Below are positions 42,282 to 57,106 of a DNA stretch of 64,000 nucleotides, in pieces. This DNA is from OCS116 cluster bacterium AG-435-F03 (GTDB lineage Bacteria > Pseudomonadota > Alphaproteobacteria > MED-G09). Position numbers and translations under genes: made by a program. The notes under the pieces were generated by a model, which did not search any database, had not been told where the DNA came from, and saw only the letters and a program-made list of their open reading frames with translations. Each line of letters begins with the position of its first letter. Positions within the stretch are counted from its first letter, which is position 1. The DNA lies in the NCBI GenBank assembly GCA_003212795.1, contig QCOV01000003.1:75001-139000 (forward strand), written 5' to 3'.

Positions 42282-43595
42282 TTATGAACTTTTCATCACT
42301 AAAGCCTCGGCAAAAGGCTTTCTTCCAAAATAAAATATTAGAAAAGATATTGGCCCACAAATTAAAAATATTGTGGCCATAGATAAATCTATAGCCATTT
42401 CATTTTTGAAAACCTTATCCGTAAAAAATGCTACCACCATTGGGCCTAATCCGTATCCAGTAATATTTACTGTAAAGACATACAATCCTGATACAACGCC
42501 TCTATACTGATTTGGGGTGATATTTTGAAGCGATGTTGCAAACAAAGCCAGAGGAAGTGTAATAAAAAAACTAGTTATAAAAATACCAATCAAGACAGTG
42601 CTTGAACTTAGACTTAGGAATGTAATGGGACCTATTATAGTTAAAGCAATTGCTGTAACGATACAAACAACGATAGTAGCCGCATTAACATTTAACTTAG
42701 TTAGATATTTTTCGATAACGGGACCTGAAACAACACCCAAAGATCCTGCAAACAAAGCTACTAGGCCATATTGATCTCCAATTCTTGTATGCTCCCATCC
42801 ATGTATTCTATGTAAAAAAGTTGGAACCCAAGATTGTACGCCATATAAAAGAACAATTATAAAAGCTGATCCTATTAAAAGTGGTATATAGGCTCCAATA
42901 TTTTTAATTACATAAGAAAAAACATCTCTAATAGAATCTTTTTCATCTTTATCAGTAACTATTACTTCTTTTCTTACAGGATCTTTCAGGGCAAACATAA
43001 ATAAGCCTAAGATCACTCCAGGTACTGCAATTATAAGAAATATAATTTGCCACGGTTGAACAATAATACTTTCAAATAAAGTTACTGGTTCATTATAAAT
43101 TCTTAGAATCTGAGCTCCAAATAGCAAAGATAGGCCTTGGCCTATATAAGGACCCATTAAGTATATACTCATTGGAAAGCTTCTTTTCTCAATTGGGAAT
43201 AGATCTGAGATAATTGACCATGATGCAGGCGTTAGAGCTGCTTCACCAGCACCTACACCTGATCTTGATATAACTAATTGCCAAGAATTTTTTGAAAGAC
43301 CACAAGCTGCAGTCGCTACACTCCAAATAATTATACCACCTATAAGCACTCGAACGCGGTTTACCTTATCAACAATTCTTCCAAAAGGAATACTAAATAT
43401 TATGTAAGCAAGAACAAAACCCCATCCCTGGATAAATGATATCTCAAAATCAGTAAGGCCCATATCCTCTTTGATTGGAACAACAAGATAGTTAATCATT
43501 TGCCTATCAATAAATGAAATAATATAGGCAAATAAAAGAATAGAAGTAAAAAACCAAGCATAAATTGGTTTTGGCCATGAAGTAGAATTAGTCAA
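42282..43595 (-). CDS. Major facilitator superfamily transporter
   Basis: The roughly 437-residue protein has 12 membrane helices, the loop 2-3 motif PFGRIVDKVNRVRVLIGG (about 72-89), and SFIDRQMINYLV in the first helix, as in spinster-like and organic-anion MFS members. No ATG is available near the N-terminus. I chose the TTG at 43595, which follows GGGG by six bases; another in-frame TTG at 43607 lies inside the T-run of the preceding terminator. Expression may depend on read-through of that terminator. The substrate is unknown. Confidence 0.82.
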   Translation of the reverse strand: MTNSTSWPKPIYAWFFTSILLFAYIISFIDRQMINYLVVPIKEDMGLTDFEISFIQGWGFVLAYIIFSIPFGRIVDKVNRVRVLIGGIIIWSVATAACGLSKNSWQLVISRSGVGAGEAALTPASWSIISDLFPIEKRSFPMSIYLMGPYIGQGLSLLFGAQILRIYNEPVTLFESIIVQPWQIIFLIIAVPGVILGLFMFALKDPVRKEVIVTDKDEKDSIRDVFSYVIKNIGAYIPLLIGSAFIIVLLYGVQSWVPTFLHRIHGWEHTRIGDQYGLVALFAGSLGVVSGPVIEKYLTKLNVNAATIVVCIVTAIALTIIGPITFLSLSSSTVLIGIFITSFFITLPLALFATSLQNITPNQYRGVVSGLYVFTVNITGYGLGPMVVAFFTDKVFKNEMAIDLSMATIFLICGPISFLIFYFGRKPFAEALVMKSS

Positions 43596-43605
43596 TTTTT
43601 TCCCC

Positions 43606-43639
43606 AAAAAAAAACCCTACCAAGATAGTAGGGTTTTTT
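43606..43639 (-). terminator. Strong bidirectional-looking terminator after the secreted-paralogue array
   Basis: CCCTAC-CAAGATA-GTAGGG hairpin at 43615-43633, with nine As at 43606-43614 (Ts on the minus strand) and six Ts at 43634-43639. It lies 26 bases after the last array gene and immediately before the MFS gene start. Confidence 0.9.
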
Positions 43640-43665
43640 ATAAAAGTTAAGTTTCTTTATTTAAT

Positions 43666-44355
43666 TTATTTTTCCCAACTCTTTACTAAGTACACTAAAG
43701 AACGAGACATTACTTTTCTAAATTTGTTAGCCCTTTGAAGGTAATTTTGTCCTTCTGCTGTAGCTAATGAGCTATCAAGATTAGACATAGCTTCTTCAAG
43801 TGAAGAGCCATTAATAACAACATAATGAGTTCGATTATCAACACCAGTAAATGTATCTGCAAATACGGTAATGCTTCCATTTGGGTTGGCACTATTCAAA
43901 AACTTACCAAGACTTTTTACAAAGGCAGCATTATCTTTTGCTTTTATATCAATTAAAATTCCTACTGGAGCATTTGGGTCTTGTTCACCAGCTGAAAGAA
44001 TAGGTGTACCAGCTCCATTAAGAACCCAAGTAACATTTTGATTTAATGTTGATAAAAGTGCTTGGCCTTCTGCAGAACCATTTACAATACTGTTATTTTT
44101 TTCAAATTGATCAGGTCCTGAGTGTTCGGCAACCATGCAATGGGTTATATTATTCTCTCCGTTTAATGGAAATGCATATAGCCTATGCGTAGACATACCG
44201 TCTGAAGAAGATGAGTTTAAAAATCCATCAAATGCACTTACTACATTATTAGCTGTTTCAAGAGCATTGAAGCAGTAATATGCGTGTAAAGGTGCTGCCT
44301 TTACATTTCCAGTAAAAATAAAAAATGCAAAAGCAATAGTTAAAATATATTTCAT
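43666..44355 (-). CDS. Secreted two-repeat protein, array member 5 (divergent)
   Basis: The 229-residue protein has a signal peptide (cleavage after VKA, residue 20). I recognise no named family. The mature part is two similar halves: STHRLYAFPLNGENNITHCM then SAEGQALLSTLNQ in the first, and NGSITVFADTFTGVDNRTHYVV then TAEGQNYLQRANK in the second. This layout fits a duplicated ferredoxin-like (dimeric alpha-beta barrel type) domain. Only two cysteines are present, both in the first half, unlike members 1-4. It is the last gene of the array, 23 bases after member 4, and is followed by a terminator. Confidence 0.75.
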   Translation of the reverse strand: MKYILTIAFAFFIFTGNVKAAPLHAYYCFNALETANNVVSAFDGFLNSSSSDGMSTHRLYAFPLNGENNITHCMVAEHSGPDQFEKNNSIVNGSAEGQALLSTLNQNVTWVLNGAGTPILSAGEQDPNAPVGILIDIKAKDNAAFVKSLGKFLNSANPNGSITVFADTFTGVDNRTHYVVINGSSLEEAMSNLDSSLATAEGQNYLQRANKFRKVMSRSLVYLVKSWEK

Positions 44356-44378
44356 TTTTTTCTCCTTTAAATAAAACT

Positions 44379-45170
44379 TTAATTTGGCCTGTTATAAACT
44401 TTTTCATGCATTAGCATTGGGTCACTGCATTTAGCATATTCAGTTTCATATTCATCTCGAAATCTCCAACCTCCCTCTGCAGCTTCAACTTTTTTAGATT
44501 GCATTACTGATTCCATATCAGGGAATAAGACAACATGTGCAAAAGTTGGATAATTAGCTCCTCCAAGTAGTGGTACCATTGTTAACCAACCAATTGCACC
44601 ATTTGGATTTTCTTCCATTCTTGCAGCAGCCTTATTATGAAAAGCTATCAAGTCATCAGGGCTTTTCTCGTCACGAATACTACACCAATTCCATTCAGCA
44701 TATCGACTATCGCCTTCATTTAAAGCTTCTTCATTTGCATAATTAAAGTAAGCAGAATTCATCTTCATGTAACATGTAGAAACCTCACCCCATTCATTAA
44801 GTATGTCTTGACCCTCTTTTGTTTCAGTTAATTTATCCCAGCCCTTTCCATGCGTTTCGAAAGGTCCAGCCATAAATTCTACAAAATCATAAGATGGCGG
44901 GTTATCAAAATCACCATGTTGAAAATGAGGAGTTTGAATAGCAAGAAATGTTTCTACACCATTCTTTTTTGCCCAATTGAAGTATCTTTCGTTAAGAGTC
45001 TCGTATCGCTCCATTGAGATACCTTCATTTAATCTGCAAATATTTGCTTGAATAGCAAAAGCAGAATCGGATGTAATCCCAGCTCCAAGCCTATTATCTT
45101 GAGCATTTACGGGATTAAAAATTAAGAAAATTGTAAATACTAAACTAAATAATAATATATTTTTTTTCAT
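44379..45170 (-). CDS. Secreted two-repeat cysteine protein, array member 4
   Basis: The 263-residue protein has a signal peptide (cleavage after VNA, residue 23). Each half of the mature protein starts at a Cys (IQANICRLNEGISMERY, Cys45; WNWCSIRDEKSPDD) and ends at a Cys (WGEVSTC; YETEYAKC). Conserved shared segments with members 2 and 3 include KKNGVETF, YDFVEF, ETKEGQ, GAIGW and FAHVVLFPD. The fold is probably two ferredoxin-like units, each closed by a disulfide; this is inferred. Unlike its three upstream neighbours the mature end is QDN, not DDH. The function is unknown. Confidence 0.78.
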   Translation of the reverse strand: MKKNILLFSLVFTIFLIFNPVNAQDNRLGAGITSDSAFAIQANICRLNEGISMERYETLNERYFNWAKKNGVETFLAIQTPHFQHGDFDNPPSYDFVEFMAGPFETHGKGWDKLTETKEGQDILNEWGEVSTCYMKMNSAYFNYANEEALNEGDSRYAEWNWCSIRDEKSPDDLIAFHNKAAARMEENPNGAIGWLTMVPLLGGANYPTFAHVVLFPDMESVMQSKKVEAAEGGWRFRDEYETEYAKCSDPMLMHEKVYNRPN

Positions 45171-45184
45171 TATTTTTCCTTTTA

Positions 45185-45961
45185 TTATTGAGGTAATCTA
45201 TTGAGAACTTGCACATCATATAATTCTTCACCTCTACAAGTTGCATATTGTTTTTCATAATCTCGGTAATGTTTCCAACCACCTTGAGCGATTGTTTTTT
45301 GATGCTTCATTGAGGCTTTATTATCAGGAAAAATTATAATATGAGCAAATTGTCCTGGTGCACTTGCTCCTCCAAGTCGAGGAATAATGCCTGCCCAACC
45401 TATGATACCCTGATCATTGCCCTCAAGATTTTTAGCCATTTCAGAATGTTTTTGCAAAACCTCTTCAGCACTAACATTATCATTGATAGTGCACCAATTC
45501 CAAGTTGCGACTCTTTCGTCAGCTTTTGCTAGAGCATCTTCATCTGACCACAAAGTAACTCCTGTTCCCATTTTAGGATAGCAATCCGCTGCAGCTTGCC
45601 ATTGTGCATTTAGTTTTTGACCTTCCTTAGAGTCCAACCATAAATCCCAGGCTTCACCTGAAGTTTCATGAGTAGAACCTAATATTTCTAGGAAATCATA
45701 GGTTAATGGGTTACCAGTTGTTCCATGAGAAAATAATGGAAAGTGACGAACATAAAATGTTTCTACATTATTCTTTTTTGACCATTTCACATAATCTTGT
45801 GTAACAGCATTATATTCTTTTAATGATACACCCTCTTTAAGTTTGCATACATTAACTTGAACATTAGAAACATTTGGAAGCTCTTCATAATGATCATCTG
45901 AGTAGACATCAAAAGAAAAGACAAAAAATCCAGTAATAAAAAAGGTTAATAATTTTTTCAT
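45185..45961 (-). CDS. Secreted two-repeat cysteine protein, array member 3
   Basis: The 258-residue protein has a signal peptide (cleavage after VYS, residue 21) that would leave Asp-Asp-His at the N-terminus. Cysteines occur at the start and end of each half: VQVNVCKLKEG (Cys39), WQAAADC, TWNWCTINDNVS and YEKQYATCRG. It is clearly paralogous to member 2: YVKWSKKNNVETF, EGQKLNAQWQ, GIIGWAG, PGQFAHIIIFPD and GGWKHYRDYEKQ have near matches there. It lies 13 bases after member 2. No enzyme motif is recognised; an N-terminal DDH could bind copper or nickel. Confidence 0.8.
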   Translation of the reverse strand: MKKLLTFFITGFFVFSFDVYSDDHYEELPNVSNVQVNVCKLKEGVSLKEYNAVTQDYVKWSKKNNVETFYVRHFPLFSHGTTGNPLTYDFLEILGSTHETSGEAWDLWLDSKEGQKLNAQWQAAADCYPKMGTGVTLWSDEDALAKADERVATWNWCTINDNVSAEEVLQKHSEMAKNLEGNDQGIIGWAGIIPRLGGASAPGQFAHIIIFPDNKASMKHQKTIAQGGWKHYRDYEKQYATCRGEELYDVQVLNRLPQ

Positions 45962-45974
45962 GCTTATTCTCCTG

Positions 45975-46748
45975 TTAACTATTTGGATTATTAATTACTT
46001 GTTCAATCATAAAGGCATCACCGCGACATGTTGCAAAATCTTTTTGATAATCTCTATAATCTTTCCAACCACCATCAGATTGAGCTTGCTGATATATTTG
46101 TGCCGCTTCAACATTTGGATATACAGCAATATGGGCAAAATCACCTGGAGCTTGATCAGTTCCTATTCTTGGAAATAAATTAGCCCAACCAATAATCCCT
46201 AATGAATCTTCTTCAAGAATTTTTGCTCGTCTATCATGCTCGGCTATCAAATCTTCATATGATACGCCATCATTTAAAGAACACCAATTCCATGCAACGA
46301 TTCTATTATTATCTTTATTAATTTCATCTTGGTTTACATATAAAGGTACTGCCGCACCCTGCTTAACTCTGCAATCAGCAAGTTTTTGCCATTTTTCGTT
46401 TAATTTTTGACCATCACTTGTACCAAGCCATTTATCCCAACCTTTCCCACTAACAGAATGTGTTGACCACAAAAGTTCCATAAAATCATATCCTGCATCA
46501 AACCAACTATCTTGTGGATATAAAGGTGTTTGTCTTGCAAAAAATAATTCTACATCATGTTTTTTTGACCATTTAACATAATCATCAATCATTTCATCAT
46601 ATTGCTTGATTGAAGTATTTCCTTTCAAAGTACAAAGTTGTACTTGAACGTTAAAAACTTCTGTTCCGTCAGATGCATGATCATCAGCAAAAACAAAATT
46701 ATTAAAACCAAAAAAAGCTATAAAGCCAAAAGTTAAATATTTTTTCAT
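45975..46748 (-). CDS. Secreted two-repeat cysteine protein, array member 2
   Basis: The 257-residue protein has a signal peptide (cleavage after VFA, residue 21) leaving DDHASDG. The four framing cysteines are in VQVQLCTLKGN (Cys39), WQKLADC, AWNWCSLNDGVS and YQKDFATCRG. Internal duplication is visible as two units of about 95 residues. It shares most conserved tryptophans and the YDFMELL and FAHIAVYPN strands with member 3. The gap to member 1 is 17 bases. The family is unknown to me; similar two-unit folds occur in dimeric alpha-beta barrel proteins, some of which bind heme, but no ligand residue is assigned. Confidence 0.8.
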   Translation of the reverse strand: MKKYLTFGFIAFFGFNNFVFADDHASDGTEVFNVQVQLCTLKGNTSIKQYDEMIDDYVKWSKKHDVELFFARQTPLYPQDSWFDAGYDFMELLWSTHSVSGKGWDKWLGTSDGQKLNEKWQKLADCRVKQGAAVPLYVNQDEINKDNNRIVAWNWCSLNDGVSYEDLIAEHDRRAKILEEDSLGIIGWANLFPRIGTDQAPGDFAHIAVYPNVEAAQIYQQAQSDGGWKDYRDYQKDFATCRGDAFMIEQVINNPNS

Positions 46749-46765
46749 AATCGTATTCTCCTTAA

Positions 46766-47536
46766 CTATTCATCACCATTACGTAATAAATTTGTTGTGT
46801 AAATTCTTGGGCTATCACAATCTACAACTGAACCCCAAGTATCTTGAAGGGCCGTATTGCCAGGTTGATAACCAGCTTGTCTAGCTTTGCCCATTTCTTC
46901 ATAATTAGACCAACCTGCACCAACTTTAATATCCCAATCGGCATCCAATTCATTACCAGCATCAGGAACAAATATAGCAATGAGAGGGTCAGCGCCTGTT
47001 GTTTCAATATACTTATTAAAATCTCCTGCTGCTTTCATTAAATCAGCCATATTTTTACCATCTCTAAATTTACAATTTGCGAGTTGGAAAGGATTATTTT
47101 TAGTTTTATCTTGATCCCAATCAACTTGTCTTGCTGGTAATACAGCAAATATAGATCTTGGACTACATGTTGCCACTTCATTAAATTTAAGTCCTATTGT
47201 TTGTTCACCTTCTTGAACCCAGTTTTCCATTGTGTTTCCGTAGTTCTCAAAATTCGGGCTAAATCCAAACCATATATAATCGAATGATAGCATTCCTTGA
47301 CTTACTGCAAATGGCGCCATTGACCATGCAGAGTAATTTAGATCCTTTCTATCGGCCCATTTATCCCATTCTTTAACGACTTTATTTAAATCATTTGCAG
47401 ATTTTCCATCATTAAAAGAGCATGCTAGCATTTCTGCTACAGCAGGGCCTACTGGTTGATGATCATCAGCATAAGTTAAATTAGTGGTTAATAAAAAAAT
47501 TAGCGATAAAGCAAAAATAGATATAGATTTATTCAT
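46766..47536 (-). CDS. Secreted two-repeat cysteine protein, array member 1
   Basis: The 256-residue protein has a signal peptide (cleavage after TYA, residue 23) leaving DDHQPVG. It follows the same plan as members 2-4 but is more divergent: MLACSFNDGKSANDLNK (Cys39) to KFNEVATC, and QLANCKFRDGKNMADLMK to WGSVVDC. Conserved W.KW near residue 57 is shared. It is the promoter-proximal gene, with a Fur-type box 46 bases upstream of the ATG and a GGGAG ribosome site. The function is unknown. Confidence 0.78.
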   Translation of the reverse strand: MNKSISIFALSLIFLLTTNLTYADDHQPVGPAVAEMLACSFNDGKSANDLNKVVKEWDKWADRKDLNYSAWSMAPFAVSQGMLSFDYIWFGFSPNFENYGNTMENWVQEGEQTIGLKFNEVATCSPRSIFAVLPARQVDWDQDKTKNNPFQLANCKFRDGKNMADLMKAAGDFNKYIETTGADPLIAIFVPDAGNELDADWDIKVGAGWSNYEEMGKARQAGYQPGNTALQDTWGSVVDCDSPRIYTTNLLRNGDE

Positions 47537-47581
47537 TAGAAACTCCCTTATTTAAAACCCAAGCAAAAAACCTTGCATTAT

Positions 47582-47596
47582 TGAGAATCGTTATCA
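47582..47596. promoter_or_regulatory. Fur-type 7-1-7 operator upstream of the secreted-paralogue array
   Basis: TGAGAAT-C-GTTATCA on the plus strand matches TGATAAT-N-ATTATCA at 12 of 14 positions and is itself nearly palindromic. It lies 46 bases upstream of the first array gene (minus strand) and 170 bases upstream of the divergent cupin gene. The rest of the 229-base gap is AT-rich with no further feature seen. Confidence 0.65.
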
Positions 47597-47765
47597 ACAA
47601 TTTTTTTTTATTTATTATTATTTTCTTACACACATTCAGTATAAAAAAATATTTTTTATACATAATATTGTGGATAACTTTTATTTTTGAACTAAAGAAC
47701 AATATTTTATTTCCTAAAGCATATTTTTTTATTTAAAATTCTATCGTCAAAAAAGGAAAAGAAAA

Positions 47766-48305
47766 ATGGAAAATCTCAGGAGAATTATTACTGGTCATAA
47801 TGAAGATGGAAAATCAATAATTTCTATTGATGGTCCTCCTGCAAGAATATTAGGTGAAGATGTTGGAGGATTATTTGAAATCTGGAATACTGATGGAGAA
47901 CAAATAAATTCTCTAGATAATAAAGATAGAGCTGATATCGATGTTATTTTATCACCCCCTAAAAATGGGACAAAGTTTAGATACTTTGCTATCAAACCAA
48001 CACCTGAAGGTATACCAAGAGAAAAACTGGAAGAAGCTACAGCTAGGGCATTCGAATTAATGGGTGCAGCGCATGAAAGAGTTGATACATCAAGACACCC
48101 AGCAATGCATAAAACAAAAACTATTGATTACATAATTTTGTTAAGCGGTGATGTAACTCTATTACTTGATGAAGATGAAGTGAGACTCAAACCATTTAAT
48201 GTTGTTGTACAAAGAGGTACAAATCATGCGTGGGTTAATAACGGTAATGAGCCAGCATTGCTTATAGCGGTTTTAATAGATAGTGATTTGAAAGATAAAG
48301 CTTAA
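47766..48305 (+). CDS. Cupin domain protein
   Basis: The 179-residue protein has a C-terminal cupin barrel: MHKTKTIDYIILLSGDVTLL (about 117-136), LLDEDEVRLKPFNVVVQRGT and HAWVNNGNEPALLIAVL. The pattern resembles cupins near aromatic-degradation genes. Of the usual metal ligands only the His before KTKTIDY (HKTK) and HAW are obvious, so metal binding is uncertain. The ATG follows AAAAAAGGAAAAG. Its TAA shares TTAA with the convergent Rieske gene. Confidence 0.83.
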   Translation: MENLRRIITGHNEDGKSIISIDGPPARILGEDVGGLFEIWNTDGEQINSLDNKDRADIDVILSPPKNGTKFRYFAIKPTPEGIPREKLEEATARAFELMGAAHERVDTSRHPAMHKTKTIDYIILLSGDVTLLLDEDEVRLKPFNVVVQRGTNHAWVNNGNEPALLIAVLIDSDLKDKA

Positions 48306-49654
48306 GAATTTTTAAAAGTACGATATTCTTCAAGCCTTTTTTTGTTATCGTTTGGATGTGTCCATTCTTCAGTTATTTTAGGTTCAACTTTAAGATCATT
48401 AGGAATTCTATTTAAACCTATTATTTTATCAACCTGCTCATGCCAATGATATATCCTTGCCTCTTGATAGCTCAATGGGACGCCGTCAAAAACATATGAA
48501 TCAACGGCTTTTTGGATCCAACCACCAAAGTGAAGGTCTTCATCTAGAACTTTATTGAAACCATCAATCGCAATATCCCATATTTCTGGTCTTTTGCCTT
48601 TCCCCCAATGCGGAGCTACCCAAAAAACTTCAAAAATACACTCATCAATTGCTGTAGGCCACCATAGTAAGATTGGAAAGCCTTTTTCCGACATAGGAGA
48701 TACAAAATTAGGAACTAAATTATAAGATTGAGTACATGTCCTTGCAATATAACCACATGTTTCGATTTCTGGTCTATTATCTTCAACTTTATAGGTTTGG
48801 TTTTTATAATATTTTGATGGTTTGCCTTTTTTTCCATTAGCTTGTTTAAGGGCATCAGGATTTGCTTTTAAAGCAACTTCAGGAAGATCAGGAAAAGTTC
48901 TACTTGGAGCAACCATTCTACCGTGTCCATTTGGATAAAATGTGTTTACATTTCCAGTATAATCTAAGCCCGTGTGAACAGTTTCCGGATGTATAGACTG
49001 AACATGATAGACTTCCATGTTTGCTTCCAAAGCAATTTTCCAATTGCATTTTAGTTTATAAGTATAGTGATCAATAAGACTTAAATTCTCAAATTGAAAT
49101 TCTTGAATTTCATCATATATAACGCCAAGATTTTCTTTTAGACTTTCCGCATCTAAGTCAAAGTTCACAAAAATTAAATTTCCTAAAAGTTCAACCTTAA
49201 CCTTGTGGAGACTTCTACATGAATCATCAAATTCAACGAAATCTTTTGGATCTCTTTTTCCTATCAAATTCCCGTCATGATCATATGTCCAACCATGGTA
49301 CCCACAAACTAATTTATCTGATTGACCAAACTCATCTAGAACTATTGCTGCACCTCGATGTCTACACATATTATAAAATGCAGTTACACTTTCTTTACTT
49401 TTTCTAACCAAAATAACAGGTTGCCCTGCCTTATCCCATAATTTGTAACTTCCAACCTCAGGGATTTCATCAAGGTGTCCTGCAAGCAACCAACTTTGCT
49501 TCCATAAATATTCTTTTTCAAGATCAAAAAACTCTTTGTCTGTGTAACGTTTACCAGGTAGATCAGGAAGCTTGGGAAAATCCTTTGGAGGAGATTTTCT
49601 TTTTCTCTCATAATCTATTAGATCTTTGAGTTGATCAATTTGTTCTTGATTCAC
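48302..49654 (-). CDS. Rieske non-heme iron aromatic-ring-type oxygenase, alpha subunit
   Basis: The 450-residue protein has the Rieske [2Fe-2S] motif CRHRGA (about 92-97) and CGYHGW (about 112-117), and the mononuclear iron site HVQSIHPETV with Asp in VLDEDLHFG. Such enzymes add oxygen to aromatic rings or demethylate quaternary amines, using a separate reductase. No reductase gene is adjacent. The GTG start at 49654 follows AGGGG by six bases. The family-level call is firm; the substrate is not readable. Confidence 0.92.
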   Translation of the reverse strand: MNQEQIDQLKDLIDYERKRKSPPKDFPKLPDLPGKRYTDKEFFDLEKEYLWKQSWLLAGHLDEIPEVGSYKLWDKAGQPVILVRKSKESVTAFYNMCRHRGAAIVLDEFGQSDKLVCGYHGWTYDHDGNLIGKRDPKDFVEFDDSCRSLHKVKVELLGNLIFVNFDLDAESLKENLGVIYDEIQEFQFENLSLIDHYTYKLKCNWKIALEANMEVYHVQSIHPETVHTGLDYTGNVNTFYPNGHGRMVAPSRTFPDLPEVALKANPDALKQANGKKGKPSKYYKNQTYKVEDNRPEIETCGYIARTCTQSYNLVPNFVSPMSEKGFPILLWWPTAIDECIFEVFWVAPHWGKGKRPEIWDIAIDGFNKVLDEDLHFGGWIQKAVDSYVFDGVPLSYQEARIYHWHEQVDKIIGLNRIPNDLKVEPKITEEWTHPNDNKKRLEEYRTFKNS

Positions 49655-51485: not shown

Positions 51486-52439
51486 ATGGCATTAGTTACT
51501 GTATTAAGCGCAAGTGGAAGACCAGGTCTAGCTCAGGTTCGACAACTTATAAAAGCTGGATATGAAGTAAGAGGAACAACTAGAAATCCTGAAAGATTAA
51601 GTCAATTTGATGATATTGAAGTGGTAAGCGCTGACTACAATGATCCGGACTCAGTTTATGAAGCATGTTTAGGGGCTGATTCAGTATTTTATACTAGACC
51701 TTCATTTGAAGAGTCACATAAAGCTCTTGATTTCGCAGCCACAGTAGGTTCTGCAGCAAAAAGGGCTAATGTAAGAAGACTTATTTATAATACTTGCTGC
51801 TGGGGTCCTCCTGAAGAATTAGGTGATGTCGGTCAAGCTGGCTATGATAGCGTTAAATTAATGATTAATACTTTAAAACAAGCTGGAGTTCAGACTACTA
51901 CATTTCAACCAGTTCTATTTATGGATAATCTTTTAACTGATTGGGCTAGAGAAGATATAATGAATAACAATTTATATACATATCCTCATAATCCTAATCT
52001 TGAAGCAAGCTGGATATGTCTTGATGATGTAGCAAAATTTATGATTGCTGCAATTGATAGAGATGACTTAATTGGTAGAAATATAAATATTGGTGGACCT
52101 GAAGTATTTACTCCTCCTAGAGTTGCAGATCTTCTATCAGGTCACTTTGGTAAACCTATCAAGTATGAAGAGCTAAGTTTAGTTGATTTTTCTAATAGAC
52201 TCTATGATATCTTTTTTGCAGATATTGATGAAGATATGAGAGGTGGTCGATCCGAAAATAGAGACGCTTTTATTGAAAGTATGTCAGACTTTTATAAATT
52301 CAATAATGTGTCTGAACATAAACCTTTCAAAGTTGATATGGCGCCTGTTTTAAAAGAAATACCAATTGAACTTACACCTTTTAGTGAATGGATTAGCCAA
52401 CAAGATTGGAATGAAAAAGTTGATACGAAAGCAGGTTAA
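51486..52439 (+). CDS. NmrA-like NAD(P)-binding protein
   Basis: The 317-residue atypical short-chain dehydrogenase starts LVTVLSASGRPGLAQVRQLI (about 3-22), where GRPGLAQ replaces the usual GATG.G dinucleotide motif, then VRGTTRNPERLSQFDDIEVV and NTCCWGPPEEL. NmrA-like proteins sense or use NADP(H). A strong AGGAGG lies just before the ATG. It ends the plus-strand catabolic set and shares TTAA with the convergent korB stop. Confidence 0.85.
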   Translation: MALVTVLSASGRPGLAQVRQLIKAGYEVRGTTRNPERLSQFDDIEVVSADYNDPDSVYEACLGADSVFYTRPSFEESHKALDFAATVGSAAKRANVRRLIYNTCCWGPPEELGDVGQAGYDSVKLMINTLKQAGVQTTTFQPVLFMDNLLTDWAREDIMNNNLYTYPHNPNLEASWICLDDVAKFMIAAIDRDDLIGRNINIGGPEVFTPPRVADLLSGHFGKPIKYEELSLVDFSNRLYDIFFADIDEDMRGGRSENRDAFIESMSDFYKFNNVSEHKPFKVDMAPVLKEIPIELTPFSEWISQQDWNEKVDTKAG

Positions 52440-53491
52440 GAAAAGCTCTTATTAACTTGGCGAAGCTTTTTATGACCTGGGGTAAGATCCTTTTTCTTAA
52501 GTTGATTCAAAGGTTTTTCAGTTGTAAGCAGGGTATCGTGAAGATCTTCTTCGTTTTGATCTAAATATATTAACCCGGTAATAATTTCTCCTTTGTCACG
52601 TGAGTCATTAATCTTGCCAATTGCTTTTCTTCTGCTACCTGGATCATAACTCTTGTTTAATTTATGAAGCAACATCTTTGATCCATCATGAACATTAACT
52701 TCGATTGATTTTCCTTCTGCATAGTTAACAGAAATTTCTTCATTTTCAGGAATAACATCAAGGAATCCAACAGCTTCATTATGCTCTCTGAAATATTCAT
52801 AACTCTTAGTTGACTGAGCGTGATTATTAAAGGTAACACAAGGTGAAATTACATCTATAAATGCAAAACCTTTGTAGCTAAGTGCTGCTCTGATTAAAGG
52901 TATCAACTGATCTTTATCTCCAGAAAAACTACGCGCAACAAATCCTGCTCCTAATTGAATGGCAAGTGCAGCTAGATCAATTGACTCAAACATATTATCT
53001 ACACCTTTTCTACTCTTTGATTCTTTGTCATTAGTGGCTGAAAATTGACCTTTAGTTAAACCATATGTCCCATTGTTTTCACATATATAAACCATATTTA
53101 ATCGTCTACGCATAATATGGCAAAATTGACCTAATCCTATTGACGCCGTATCACCATCGCCAGATACACCTAGATAATATAAATCTCTATTGGCTAGATT
53201 AGCTCCAGTAGCAACTGATGGCATTCTTCCATGCACAGAGTTAAAACCATGAGATTTATTCAAGAAGTATGTAGGTGTTTTTGAAGAGCATCCAATGCCA
53301 GAGAGTTTTGCCAACCTATGAGCAGGTATAGATAATTGAAAACACGCCTCAATAATAGCAGAAGATACTGAGTCATGACCACATCCTGCACATAAAGTAG
53401 ATAAAGCCCCCTCATAATCCCTTCTTGTTAAACCAAGTTTATTTTTTGGTAAATTGGGGTGTCTAGCATTTGGTTTTTTTATAAAACTCAT
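52436..53491 (-). CDS. korB: 2-oxoacid:ferredoxin oxidoreductase, beta subunit
   Basis: The 351-residue TPP-binding subunit contains LCAGCGHDSVSSAIIEACFQ (about 33-52), the TPP motif YLGVSGDGDTASIGLGQFCH (about 106-125) and ENNGTYGLTKGQFSAT. This matches the beta subunit of 2-oxoglutarate (or pyruvate) ferredoxin oxidoreductases, which cleave 2-oxoacids to acyl-CoA and pass electrons to ferredoxin. It starts four bases after the alpha subunit stop. The C-terminal extension of about 70 residues is basic. Confidence 0.92.
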   Translation of the reverse strand: MSFIKKPNARHPNLPKNKLGLTRRDYEGALSTLCAGCGHDSVSSAIIEACFQLSIPAHRLAKLSGIGCSSKTPTYFLNKSHGFNSVHGRMPSVATGANLANRDLYYLGVSGDGDTASIGLGQFCHIMRRRLNMVYICENNGTYGLTKGQFSATNDKESKSRKGVDNMFESIDLAALAIQLGAGFVARSFSGDKDQLIPLIRAALSYKGFAFIDVISPCVTFNNHAQSTKSYEYFREHNEAVGFLDVIPENEEISVNYAEGKSIEVNVHDGSKMLLHKLNKSYDPGSRRKAIGKINDSRDKGEIITGLIYLDQNEEDLHDTLLTTEKPLNQLKKKDLTPGHKKLRQVNKSFS

Positions 53492-53495
53492 TTTT

Positions 53496-55328
53496 TTAAG
53501 CCGCTGTTCTTGATTTTTTAACTTTTGCTATAATTTTTTTATTGTCCTTAACTTTTGATTTAAATTCATCAACAATAAACTTTGCAGTTAATGGACTTCC
53601 ATCAAAATTTAAAATGGAAACAAATTGATTTATATCTATTTCTAATTCATTTGAAATTAAAAATTTCATTTGTGCATCTCTATTTTGCTCAAGAATAAAT
53701 AAGTGATCATTTTCACTGATAAACTTTTCAAGAGTCTTATCAAATGGGAAGGAGCGAATACGAATCTTATTTATATCGTAGCCTTCCTCACTTAAATAAT
53801 CTATTGCTTCATCAACGGCAGGGGCTGTAGAACCAAAATAAATTAATCCAACATCGGTTTTATTTTTTGCATTTCTTCTAATTGATTTAGGTAAATATTT
53901 TGTGGATTTGTTGAATTTTTTTGTAATTCTTAAAAGATTTTCAGCATTAATTCTTCCGTCTTCAGTATATCCAGCAAAAGCGTCATGGGAAGTACCTCTT
54001 GTAAAAAAAGATCCTTTACTTGGGTGTGTCCCTGGAATAGTTCTATACGGAATTCCATCACCATCAATATCTAAATATCTTCCCCACATTTCAATTGAAT
54101 CAAGGTCTTTAGCCGATAAGACCTTACCTCTATCAAAATTATGCTTATCATCATAACTTAATTCATCTACCACCCAATCATTCATACCAATATCCAAATC
54201 ACTCATAAATATTACAGGAGTTTGAAGTCTTTCAGCTATATCAAAGGCATCCACAGACATTTCAAAACATTCTTTAGGGTCAGAAGGAAAAAGGAGTATT
54301 TGTTTGGTATCACCATGAGAAGCATATGCTGAAGATAAAATATCTGACTGTTGCGTTCTAGTTGGCATACCAGTTGATGGCCCCCCTCTTTGGATATTAA
54401 AAAGAACCAGAGGGATTTCAGCAAAATATGCTAGACCAAGAAATTCAGACATAAGAGATACACCTGGTCCTGAAGTAGCGGTAAATGCTCTTGCGCCATT
54501 CCAATTAGCTCCTATAGCCATACCTATTGCCGATAGCTCATCTTCAGCCTGAACAACAGCGCCTTTAATGTTACCTTTTGAATCAGATCTAAACATATGA
54601 AGATATTTTTCAAAGGCTTCAGCCAATGATGTTGATGGAGTAATAGGATACCATGAAGCAACAGTAGCGCCTGCAAATATACAACCCAGTCCAGAAGCTT
54701 CATTGCCCTGTATCATAATTTTCTTATTTTTTTGTTTCATCAATTTTAATTGCAAACCAAAATCAGACGATAAATTTTCTTGAGCATATTTTCGGCCTAA
54801 ACCAAGTGCATGTAAATTTGGTTCAATTAATTTAGGTTTTTTTTGAAACTCTTCTTTTATCAAACCTTTTAAAACAGAAATATCTATTTTAAAAAGAACA
54901 GATAAGGCACCTAAACAAATAATGTTTTTAAATAATTGCCTTTGTCTTGGATCATCATAATGTTCGGCACAAATACTGGCCATTGGTATTCCAATAACAT
55001 TAATATCTTTTCTCGGAAATCTCCTTTCCATGGTACTATCGTAAATAAGGTAACCACCTTTAACTAATTCCTTAAGATCAGACTGATATGTTTGTGGATT
55101 TAGAGCTATTAGACAATCTACACCATCTCTTCTTGCTATATAGCCATCTTTATTCACTCGAATTTCATACCATGTTGGTAGTCCTTGAATATTTGATGGG
55201 AAAATATTTTTTGGGCTAACAGGTATCCCCATTCTAAAAATAGTTTTAGCAAACATTAGATTTGCACTAGCAGATCCTGAACCATTAACATTAGCAAACT
55301 TAATTACAAAATCGTTCACTTTTGTCAT
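53496..55328 (-). CDS. korA: 2-oxoacid:ferredoxin oxidoreductase, fused gamma-alpha subunit
   Basis: The 610-residue protein fuses the gamma domain (about 1-190; ANVNGSGSASANLMFAKTIF) with the alpha domain (about 200-610; GNEASGLGCIFAGATVASWY and PSTSLAEAFEKYL, then TATSGPGVSLMSEFLGLAYF and QRGGPSTGMPTRTQQSD). This is the KorA layout of the type with two genes. The ATG at 55328 overlaps the upstream stop by four bases (ATGA), so production is coupled with the flavoprotein. Choice of 2-oxoglutarate over branched-chain or aromatic 2-oxoacids is not proven by sequence. Confidence 0.92.
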   Translation of the reverse strand: MTKVNDFVIKFANVNGSGSASANLMFAKTIFRMGIPVSPKNIFPSNIQGLPTWYEIRVNKDGYIARRDGVDCLIALNPQTYQSDLKELVKGGYLIYDSTMERRFPRKDINVIGIPMASICAEHYDDPRQRQLFKNIICLGALSVLFKIDISVLKGLIKEEFQKKPKLIEPNLHALGLGRKYAQENLSSDFGLQLKLMKQKNKKIMIQGNEASGLGCIFAGATVASWYPITPSTSLAEAFEKYLHMFRSDSKGNIKGAVVQAEDELSAIGMAIGANWNGARAFTATSGPGVSLMSEFLGLAYFAEIPLVLFNIQRGGPSTGMPTRTQQSDILSSAYASHGDTKQILLFPSDPKECFEMSVDAFDIAERLQTPVIFMSDLDIGMNDWVVDELSYDDKHNFDRGKVLSAKDLDSIEMWGRYLDIDGDGIPYRTIPGTHPSKGSFFTRGTSHDAFAGYTEDGRINAENLLRITKKFNKSTKYLPKSIRRNAKNKTDVGLIYFGSTAPAVDEAIDYLSEEGYDINKIRIRSFPFDKTLEKFISENDHLFILEQNRDAQMKFLISNELEIDINQFVSILNFDGSPLTAKFIVDEFKSKVKDNKKIIAKVKKSRTAA

Positions 55329-57106
55329 TTCTTGCAACCATCATGGGACTGAGCTCCAAAATAAAAGAATTTTTGCATATCCCAGGCACCAGTTGGACAT
55401 CTCTCAGCACACAAACCACAGTGCAAGCAAAGATCTTCGTCTTTAACCATAACCCTCTTCGTAGGTAATTTTCCAGAAACATATAAATCTTGAGCAAGAT
55501 TAAGAGCTGGTACCCTAATATTTTCTCTTAACTCTTGTTCATCAGCATTTTGAATAAAATTAATACAATCTTCTGGGCATATATCGACACATGCATCACA
55601 TTCAATACATCTTTTTTCTTCAAAAACTGTCTGAACATCGCAATTTAGACATCTGGCAGCCTCTTCAAATGCCATTCTGTCATCATAACCTAATTCAACT
55701 TCAACTTTTCTATCAGCTAATGTAACTTTTGGATCAGCATGAGGAACTGCTAATCTATCTACTTCTGCATAACCATTGTCGTAAGACCATTCATGTAAAC
55801 CCATTTTTGTTGATTCAAGAAAAACATGGGGCTCAGGTCTTTTTTTAAGACTCTTATTATTACAAAATAAATCAATTGAAATTGCAGCTTGATGAGCATG
55901 TGCAACAGCCGTTATTATGTTCTCTGGCCCCCAAGCAGCATCTCCTCCAAAGAAAACTTTAGGTAAAGTTGATTGCATTGTTGTGCGATCAACAATTGGC
56001 ATATCCCATTCGCCAAACTCAATACCAATATCTTTTTCAATCCACTCAAAGGCGTTATCCTGACCAATAGCCATTAGAACATCATCACACTCAACAATTT
56101 CAAGAGGCTCTCCTGTTGGTATGAGCTTTCTTCTTCCATCTTTATACTCAGCTTTTACTTTTTCAAATGCAACAGCTTTAAGCTTGCCATTTTTATGAAT
56201 AAATTCTTTTGGAACATGGTTTTCATAAATCGGAATATTCTCCATTTCAGCTTCTTCAATTTCCCAATCTGAAGCTTTCATATCTACTTTTGGAGATCTA
56301 ACATAAACTCTAACATCTTTACCACCAAGTCTTATAGCAGTTCTACAACAATCCATTGCAGTATTTCCACCTCCAAGAACAATAACTTTCTTGCCAATTT
56401 TTTTTACATGTTCAAATGCAACAGATGCTAGGAAGTCAATACCAATATGGATGTTCTTATCACATTCTTCTCGACCAGGTATATTTAGATCTTTTCCTTT
56501 TGGCGCTCCTGTTCCAACAAAAACTGCATCAAAATCTTCCTTTAAAAATTCTTTTAGGCTTTTAATTTCTTTATTATATTCAACTTCAACTCCCATATTA
56601 ATAATACGATCACACTCTTCATTTAGAACCTCTTCAGGAAGTCTAAATGATGGAATATTTGTTCGCATCAATCCGCCCGGAACGGGATCTCTTTCAAAGA
56701 TTGTACATTCATAACCTAAGGGCATTAAGTCTCGCGCAACTGCAAGAGAAACGGGCCCGGCACCTAATAAAGCTATTTTTTTTCCATTTTTCTGCTCTGG
56801 TGCAGTAGGTATCAAATCATCTATTTCACCCTTATAATCAGCAGCTACTCTTTTCAATCGACATATAGCAACGGGCTCATCCTCTACTCGAACCCTTCTG
56901 CACGCGGGCTCACAAGGTCGATCACATGTCCTTCCGAGGATTCCGGGAAATACATTTGACTCCCAGTTAATCATATATGCATCTGTATATCTTCCAGCCG
57001 CAATTAATCGAATATATTCCGGAACAGGTGTGTGGGCAGGACAAGCCCATTGACAATCAACTACCTTATGAAAGTATTCTGGATTCGATATTTTAGTCGG
57101 CTTCAT
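55325..57106 (-). CDS. GltD-like flavoprotein with C-terminal two-[4Fe-4S] ferredoxin domain
   Basis: The 593-residue protein has the N-terminal iron-sulfur domain of glutamate synthase small subunits (CQWACPAHTPVPEYIRLIAA; GRTCDRPCEPACRR), an FAD motif GAGPVSLAVARDL (about 116-128), an NAD(P)H motif VLGGGNTAMDCCRTAIRLG (about 245-263) and GGDAAWGPENIITAVAHAHQ. Two ferredoxin motifs follow: CIECDACVDICPEDC and CLHCGLCAERCPTG. It likely carries electrons between ferredoxin-type clusters and NADPH for KorAB, with which it is coupled. No gltB is present, so true glutamate synthase is unlikely. Confidence 0.9.
   Translation of the reverse strand: MKPTKISNPEYFHKVVDCQWACPAHTPVPEYIRLIAAGRYTDAYMINWESNVFPGILGRTCDRPCEPACRRVRVEDEPVAICRLKRVAADYKGEIDDLIPTAPEQKNGKKIALLGAGPVSLAVARDLMPLGYECTIFERDPVPGGLMRTNIPSFRLPEEVLNEECDRIINMGVEVEYNKEIKSLKEFLKEDFDAVFVGTGAPKGKDLNIPGREECDKNIHIGIDFLASVAFEHVKKIGKKVIVLGGGNTAMDCCRTAIRLGGKDVRVYVRSPKVDMKASDWEIEEAEMENIPIYENHVPKEFIHKNGKLKAVAFEKVKAEYKDGRRKLIPTGEPLEIVECDDVLMAIGQDNAFEWIEKDIGIEFGEWDMPIVDRTTMQSTLPKVFFGGDAAWGPENIITAVAHAHQAAISIDLFCNNKSLKKRPEPHVFLESTKMGLHEWSYDNGYAEVDRLAVPHADPKVTLADRKVEVELGYDDRMAFEEAARCLNCDVQTVFEEKRCIECDACVDICPEDCINFIQNADEQELRENIRVPALNLAQDLYVSGKLPTKRVMVKDEDLCLHCGLCAERCPTGAWDMQKFFYFGAQSHDGCKK

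Follow-up and report, generated by a model that had tools for sequence, protein, structure and literature searches.

In silico analysis of a 64,000-nucleotide stretch from OCS116 cluster bacterium AG-435-F03 (assembly GCA_003212795.1, contig QCOV01000003.1, positions 75,001 to 139,000 of the forward strand; hereafter the window) revealed an array of five successive minus-strand open reading frames (ORFs), designated W1 to W5, at positions 43666–47536. The genome that holds the window has a size of 1.44 Mb, and its close relatives are named PS1 clade or OCS116 cluster Alphaproteobacteria. The array proteins make up families that have not been described before, although their fold is known. All five show, as read from the sequence, the same N-terminal features: (i) a basic N-terminus; (ii) a hydrophobic stretch; (iii) an A/S-x-A/S-like cleavage site. 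The signal sequence is retained in most relatives, and the disordered part of the AlphaFold models comprises residues 1–27 in W2 and 1–19 in W5. Judged by this signal, all five are predicted to be Sec-exported, and their cellular location is probably periplasmic. The gaps between the genes, from W1 to W5, are 17, 13, 14 and 23 bases, and the intrinsic terminator behind W5, overlooked by a simple scan, is recovered by a fold-energy test (Table 1). A preliminary description of this DNA had proposed five consecutive minus-strand genes with gaps of 13–23 bases, signal peptides and a strong terminator, and these features are borne out by the ORFs, their spacing, the N-termini and the fold energy.

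Scans of the five proteins against Pfam and NCBIfam gave no family match, and nothing significant was obtained from PHROGs or from a Pfam scan of 54 relatives of the W2 type and 17 of the W5 type. The sole Pfam match within the barrel clan, to the alpha+beta barrel family NIPSNAP (PF07978), concerned one of 54 members and was not significant (E 0.045). The PF06778 profile (chlorite dismutase/ChdC) matched neither the five members nor the 54 W2-type and 17 W5-type relatives; the antibiotic biosynthesis monooxygenase (ABM) family profile gave no sequence match among members and relatives, and searches of PDB sequences, with single proteins and with profiles, returned nothing usable. The earlier statement that no named family could be recognised therefore stands, none of these libraries placing the proteins in a well-studied family. 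Exported, cysteine-framed families in tandem arrays on a barrel fold have no match in the libraries searched. Viral contigs, plasmids and phages, searched with one member each, contained no relatives, so that nothing suggests a viral or plasmid gene.

Each of W1–W4 contains exactly four cysteines, in register and framing two units (positions in Table 1), and they are kept without exception in relatives of W2–W4 (54 of 54) and of W1 (13 of 13). Half-to-half comparison gave local scores of 65 for W1 and 69 for W5, against 27 ± 5 for shuffled sequences (0 of 500 as high); for W2–W4, taken as single sequences, the alignment of the halves was not significant against shuffles. Profile comparison of the halves yielded probabilities of 95% (W1a–W1b), 99% (W5a–W5b) and 60% (W2a–W2b), with cross-matches of 92% for W1a–W2a and 96% for W1b–W2b. 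The two-unit plan of W2–W4 is thus based on the weak W2a–W2b match, the cross-matches to the W1 halves and the structural model of W2. Together with the cysteine register and the repeat scores, these results agree with the preliminary description of members 1–4 as proteins of two cysteine-framed units. W5 had been given the same plan with fewer cysteines, which holds for its architecture (two cysteines, the profile-level repeat and its model) but not for membership of one sequence family: in comparisons of W5 with members 1–4, profiles included, no sequence homology was detected.

Structural models of W2 and W5 were built with AlphaFold on home-made alignments, strands and helices being taken from DSSP strings. 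The mean pLDDT was 87.6 for W2 (pTM 0.81) and 83.4 for W5 (pTM 0.80). In both models the order βαββαβ is found twice per chain, and both proteins are modelled as pseudo-dimeric α+β barrels of the ferredoxin-like SCOP type. Ferredoxin-like, dimeric alpha+beta-barrel units had been expected for this array, and the models and their Foldseek matches agree with that expectation; the internal repeat, whose absence from predicted structures was to count against it, is visible as two units in W2 as well as in W5. The first and last strands of a ferredoxin-like sheet are neighbours. In the W2 model C39/C126 and C156/C241 lie on or beside these strands of the respective units, which makes a disulfide within each unit of members 1–4 likely; there is probably one such bond per unit, tying the first strand to the last.

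Foldseek comparison with the PDB ranked the structure 2PGC first for both models (E 2.7e-10 and TM 0.65/0.72 for W5; E 1.4e-6 and TM 0.61/0.73 for W2). This JCSG structure consists of a single chain of about 205 residues, the ocean-metagenome protein JCVI_PEP_1096685590403 from the Global Ocean Sampling (GOS), and belongs to a group of five solved for novel GOS families, with no function stated in the source (PMC2557142). Its identity to the array proteins is only 9–14%, and profile searches of PDB sequences did not retrieve it. The subsequent matches are putative monooxygenases (3F44/3MCS), an anthrone oxidase-like protein, the PenE monooxygenase, chlorite dismutase, coproheme decarboxylase and sulfur oxygenase reductase, and a polyketide cyclase was matched by W2 only (E 1.8e-3). 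The ABM-type putative monooxygenases and anthrone oxidase-like proteins (3F44, 3MCS, 5F9P, PenE) share the two-unit alpha+beta barrel chain, with E values of 2e-8 to 5e-7 for W5 and 2.5e-6 to 1.6e-3 for W2; however, they show no significant sequence match, and the array proteins differ in their predicted export and tandem arrangement. Chlorite dismutase (Cld), HemQ/ChdC and the DyP peroxidases also carry two ferredoxin-like units per chain (TM mostly about 0.4–0.6), but without a sequence match, and the paired cysteines of members 1–4 and the export signal belong to the array proteins.

Several polar positions hardly vary: in the W2 type, H171 (67 of 67 sequences), R149 (65/67) and H206 (64/67), and in the W5 type, H72 (36 of 36), R213 (34/36) and H177 (33/36). 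H72 and H177 occupy equivalent places in the two units of W5: the third strand of the second unit carries H177 in W5 and H206 in W2, and that of the first unit carries H72 and E91, respectively. H171, in the C-terminal unit, was considered against the proximal heme-ligating histidine of chlorite dismutase on the basis of its conservation. Tryptophan and glycine are also abundantly conserved. This pattern looks like that of a binding or active site, and inside the modelled barrel a pocket is expected, with His, Trp and Arg among its conserved residues.

The PS1 relatives carry one to five array genes between a Rieske oxygenase, with or without a cupin gene, and an MFS transporter, and this slot is constant in three PS1 genera. 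Five genes are present in genomes G000, G001 and G002, four in G004, three in G011, G016 and G017, two in G014, and W5 alone in G008, G009 and G012; the five-gene array of the preliminary description is therefore correct for the window but is not a fixed unit. W5 is the core member of the locus. Both W5 and the orthologous Rieske gene were found in 11 of 18 genomes, neither in five, and one without the other in one genome each way (Fisher p about 0.004 by our own arithmetic, n = 18 genomes). In G012 the Rieske side lies past the contig end, and the genome is without an orthologous Rieske gene. In G007 (locus L191, 6475–7602) the slot flanked by Rieske oxygenase and MFS transporter holds an old-yellow-enzyme-type flavoenzyme in the place of W5, and some PS1 loci also carry an amidohydrolase. 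The PS1 genomes, of 0.9–1.4 Mb, each contain about 7–22 matches to the Rieske oxygenase alpha subunit, which is strikingly many for genomes of this size. In the tree of the W2–W4 type all PS1 members fall on one side of a branch with support 96/86, and several subgroups are common to two PS1 genera; these paralogues are therefore older than the genus split and were unevenly lost.

In a scan of genome contigs beyond PS1, relatives were found nearly only in marine Gammaproteobacteria, chiefly Halieaceae/Luminiphilus/K189A. In marine Halieaceae a cassette of one gene order (W2 type–W1 type–W5 type) recurs, with AzlCD and an amino-acid permease as neighbours. In a second context a lone W2-type gene is located among genes for an amidase, a carboxylesterase, acyl-CoA dehydrogenases, an enoyl-CoA hydratase, an M19 dipeptidase and a TonB receptor. 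More distant paralogues number up to six per genome, and in Halieaceae the superfamily as a whole extends beyond the cassette. One gammaproteobacterial genome of the K189A clade (G410; loci L133 and L140) has W5-type and W1-type genes scattered outside the cassette. In even samples the family occurs in 3 of 385 genomes of the class, all from the window's own family, and in 1 of 399 of the phylum, the window's own genome; in the family to which one Halieaceae locus belongs, W5-type genes are present in 29 of 140 genomes. A cassette common to two classes with little in between may reflect spread by horizontal transfer. One contig labelled SAR116 cluster bacterium (L068, NZIT01000067.1) groups tightly with Halieaceae in sequences and gene order and is probably misbinned.

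The array promoter contains two conserved elements. The Fur-like palindrome upstream of W1 corresponds to the Fur-type box noted previously, although the match by itself is weak, since the AT-rich genome holds 63 sites as good as TGATAACGATTCTCA against 41 for the reversed control; the site is supported by its conservation in relatives and by its presence at three Luminiphilus-type loci. A relaxed pattern is matched at 13–14 of 14 positions in four genomes of the window's genus (equalled by no more than 1 of 300 shuffles) and at 11–13 of 14 in other genomes, mostly in the same block and more weakly in the sister genus, these figures being somewhat flattered because the pattern was written after the sites had been seen. 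At the three Luminiphilus-type loci the canonical core TGAAAATGATTCTCA lies upstream of the W2-type gene, and none of 334 control upstream regions scores as high; most Halieaceae loci have no Fur-like box in the upstream regions scanned. Two Fur-family regulators are encoded in the genome, and iron control of the array through a Fur-like operator is plausible on these sequence grounds. The genes next to the other Fur-box-like sites of the genome were read, and no iron regulon emerged. The second element, a 21-bp block containing a perfect DnaA-box-like nonamer, is likewise conserved, as TTATCCACAnTATTATGTATA; eight further PS1 genomes retain the block ahead of the array, and in one of these no cupin gene was found at the locus. 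A replication origin at this block is unsupported, as there is no lasting change of GC skew and only two copies of TTATCCACA occur in the window.

Table 1. Features of the array locus (window coordinates)
Feature	Position	Strand	Description
W1 (member 1)	46766..47536	-	256 aa, predicted exported, two units; Cys 39/124 and 155/240; relatives in PS1 and Halieaceae
W2 (member 2)	45975..46748	-	257 aa, predicted exported, modelled as two βαββαβ units; Cys 39/126 and 156/241; conserved H171, H206
W3 (member 3)	45185..45961	-	258 aa, W2 paralogue; Cys 39/127 and 157/242
W4 (member 4)	44379..45170	-	263 aa, W2 paralogue; Cys 45/133 and 163/248
W5 (member 5)	43666..44355	-	229 aa, predicted exported, same modelled fold, separate sequence family; core of locus; Cys 28 and 73 only
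Intrinsic terminator 3' of W5	43609..43639	-	14-bp stem and T run; -16.1 kcal/mol, z = -4.56
MFS transporter	42282..43607	-	constant neighbour downstream of array
Cupin-domain protein	47766..48305	+	divergent neighbour; missing in some relatives
Rieske oxygenase alpha subunit	48302..49654	-	constant neighbour, tracks W5 presence
Fur-like palindrome TGATAACGATTCTCA	47582..47596	-	upstream of W1; 12/14 positions of TGATAATnATTATCA
Second conserved block TTATCCACAATATTATGTATA	47657..47677	-	array promoter; 21 bp, single copy in genome

It is tentatively proposed, with a little less than even confidence, that the exported pocket proteins act on a small organic ligand, by binding or converting it, ahead of its import and oxidation. 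This proposal is based on the confident two-unit models, the monooxygenase-type structural matches and the near-invariant polar residues; on the constant Rieske/MFS slot, the co-occurrence of W5 with the Rieske gene and the flavoenzyme in the G007 slot; and on the catabolic genes and TonB receptor around the W2-type gene in one Halieaceae context, together with the operator-like site. Each chain would fold alone into a pseudo-dimeric alpha+beta barrel and would be exported, probably to the periplasm, where its pocket would bind or chemically alter a small molecule, probably aromatic or otherwise hydrophobic. The ligand would reach the periplasm, perhaps via TonB receptors encoded a few genes away; the MFS transporter would then take it over, and the Rieske oxygenase encoded next to the array would oxidise it in the cytoplasm. 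W5 would act as the core component and members 1–4 as added paralogues, probably widening the range or dose of ligand, and scarcity of iron would probably raise transcription of the array through the Fur-like operator. Several points weigh against this proposal: a Rieske neighbour is less telling here than in most genomes because of the many Rieske-type matches in PS1; the Rieske/MFS link is not universal, since other Halieaceae contexts differ (AzlCD, amino-acid permease); genome linkage alone could yield the co-occurrence of W5 and the Rieske gene, several genomes being incomplete; and a plain degradation role leaves the Fur-like operator unexplained.

Alternatively, the proteins could be made under iron limitation and bind heme or iron in the periplasm, in a hemophore-like or chlorite-dismutase-like manner. 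The conservation of the palindrome in the genus, TGAAAATGATTCTCA at the Luminiphilus-type homologues, the pair of Fur-family regulators, the structural matches with chlorite dismutase and coproheme decarboxylase and the invariant histidines all point in this direction; nevertheless, this explanation is rather doubtful, because no heme- or siderophore-uptake gene is adjacent to the array, the closest TonB receptors reach none of the curated cut-offs for siderophores or heme, the chlorite dismutase family has no sequence match, and Fur-box-like sites are common in the genome and absent from most Halieaceae loci. The binding of iron, heme or another metal, put forward as a possibility in the preliminary description, went beyond the evidence; the genes kept at the locus are instead those of a Rieske oxygenase and an MFS transporter. 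The scavenging of siderophores would account jointly for iron control and for the catabolic neighbours: a TonB receptor and the exported pocket proteins would capture an iron chelate, which would be degraded by hydrolases and the Rieske oxygenase. The Fur-like site, the amidase, esterase, dipeptidase and TonB receptor by the Halieaceae W2-type gene, and the Rieske oxygenase, MFS transporter and occasional amidohydrolase of PS1 would fit such chelate catabolism, yet it is quite improbable, being assembled from features of separate loci, of which the hydrolase-bearing Halieaceae ones have no Fur-like site upstream of the W2-type gene. Very improbable is a structural or stress function in the envelope without a small-molecule ligand, the residues being conserved for stability: the abundant Trp/Gly conservation and paired cysteines would suit a stable exported scaffold, but invariant His/Arg at equivalent strand and helix places, and several old, divergent, unevenly lost paralogues, suit ligand recognition better.

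The proposal of ligand binding or conversion can be extended to an undescribed, iron-responsive exported system, in which tandem paralogous disulfide-closed double-unit barrels would trap a marine organic ligand (perhaps an iron chelate) and transform it for a pathway with a Rieske oxygenase, and which would have been exchanged between PS1 and marine Halieaceae; in this complete form it is unlikely. The array families are kept by two marine clades, are tied in PS1 to a Rieske oxygenase and are conserved in the manner of an active or binding site. The identity of the ligand would reveal a molecule handled at this locus by ocean bacteria and might give a clue to what the orphan structure 2PGC does.

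Genes for a 2-oxoacid:ferredoxin oxidoreductase (TPP enzyme C-terminal and POR domains) are located near the array on the minus strand, at 52436–55337 of the window, and are unexpected beside the oxygenase-rich content of this marine genome.

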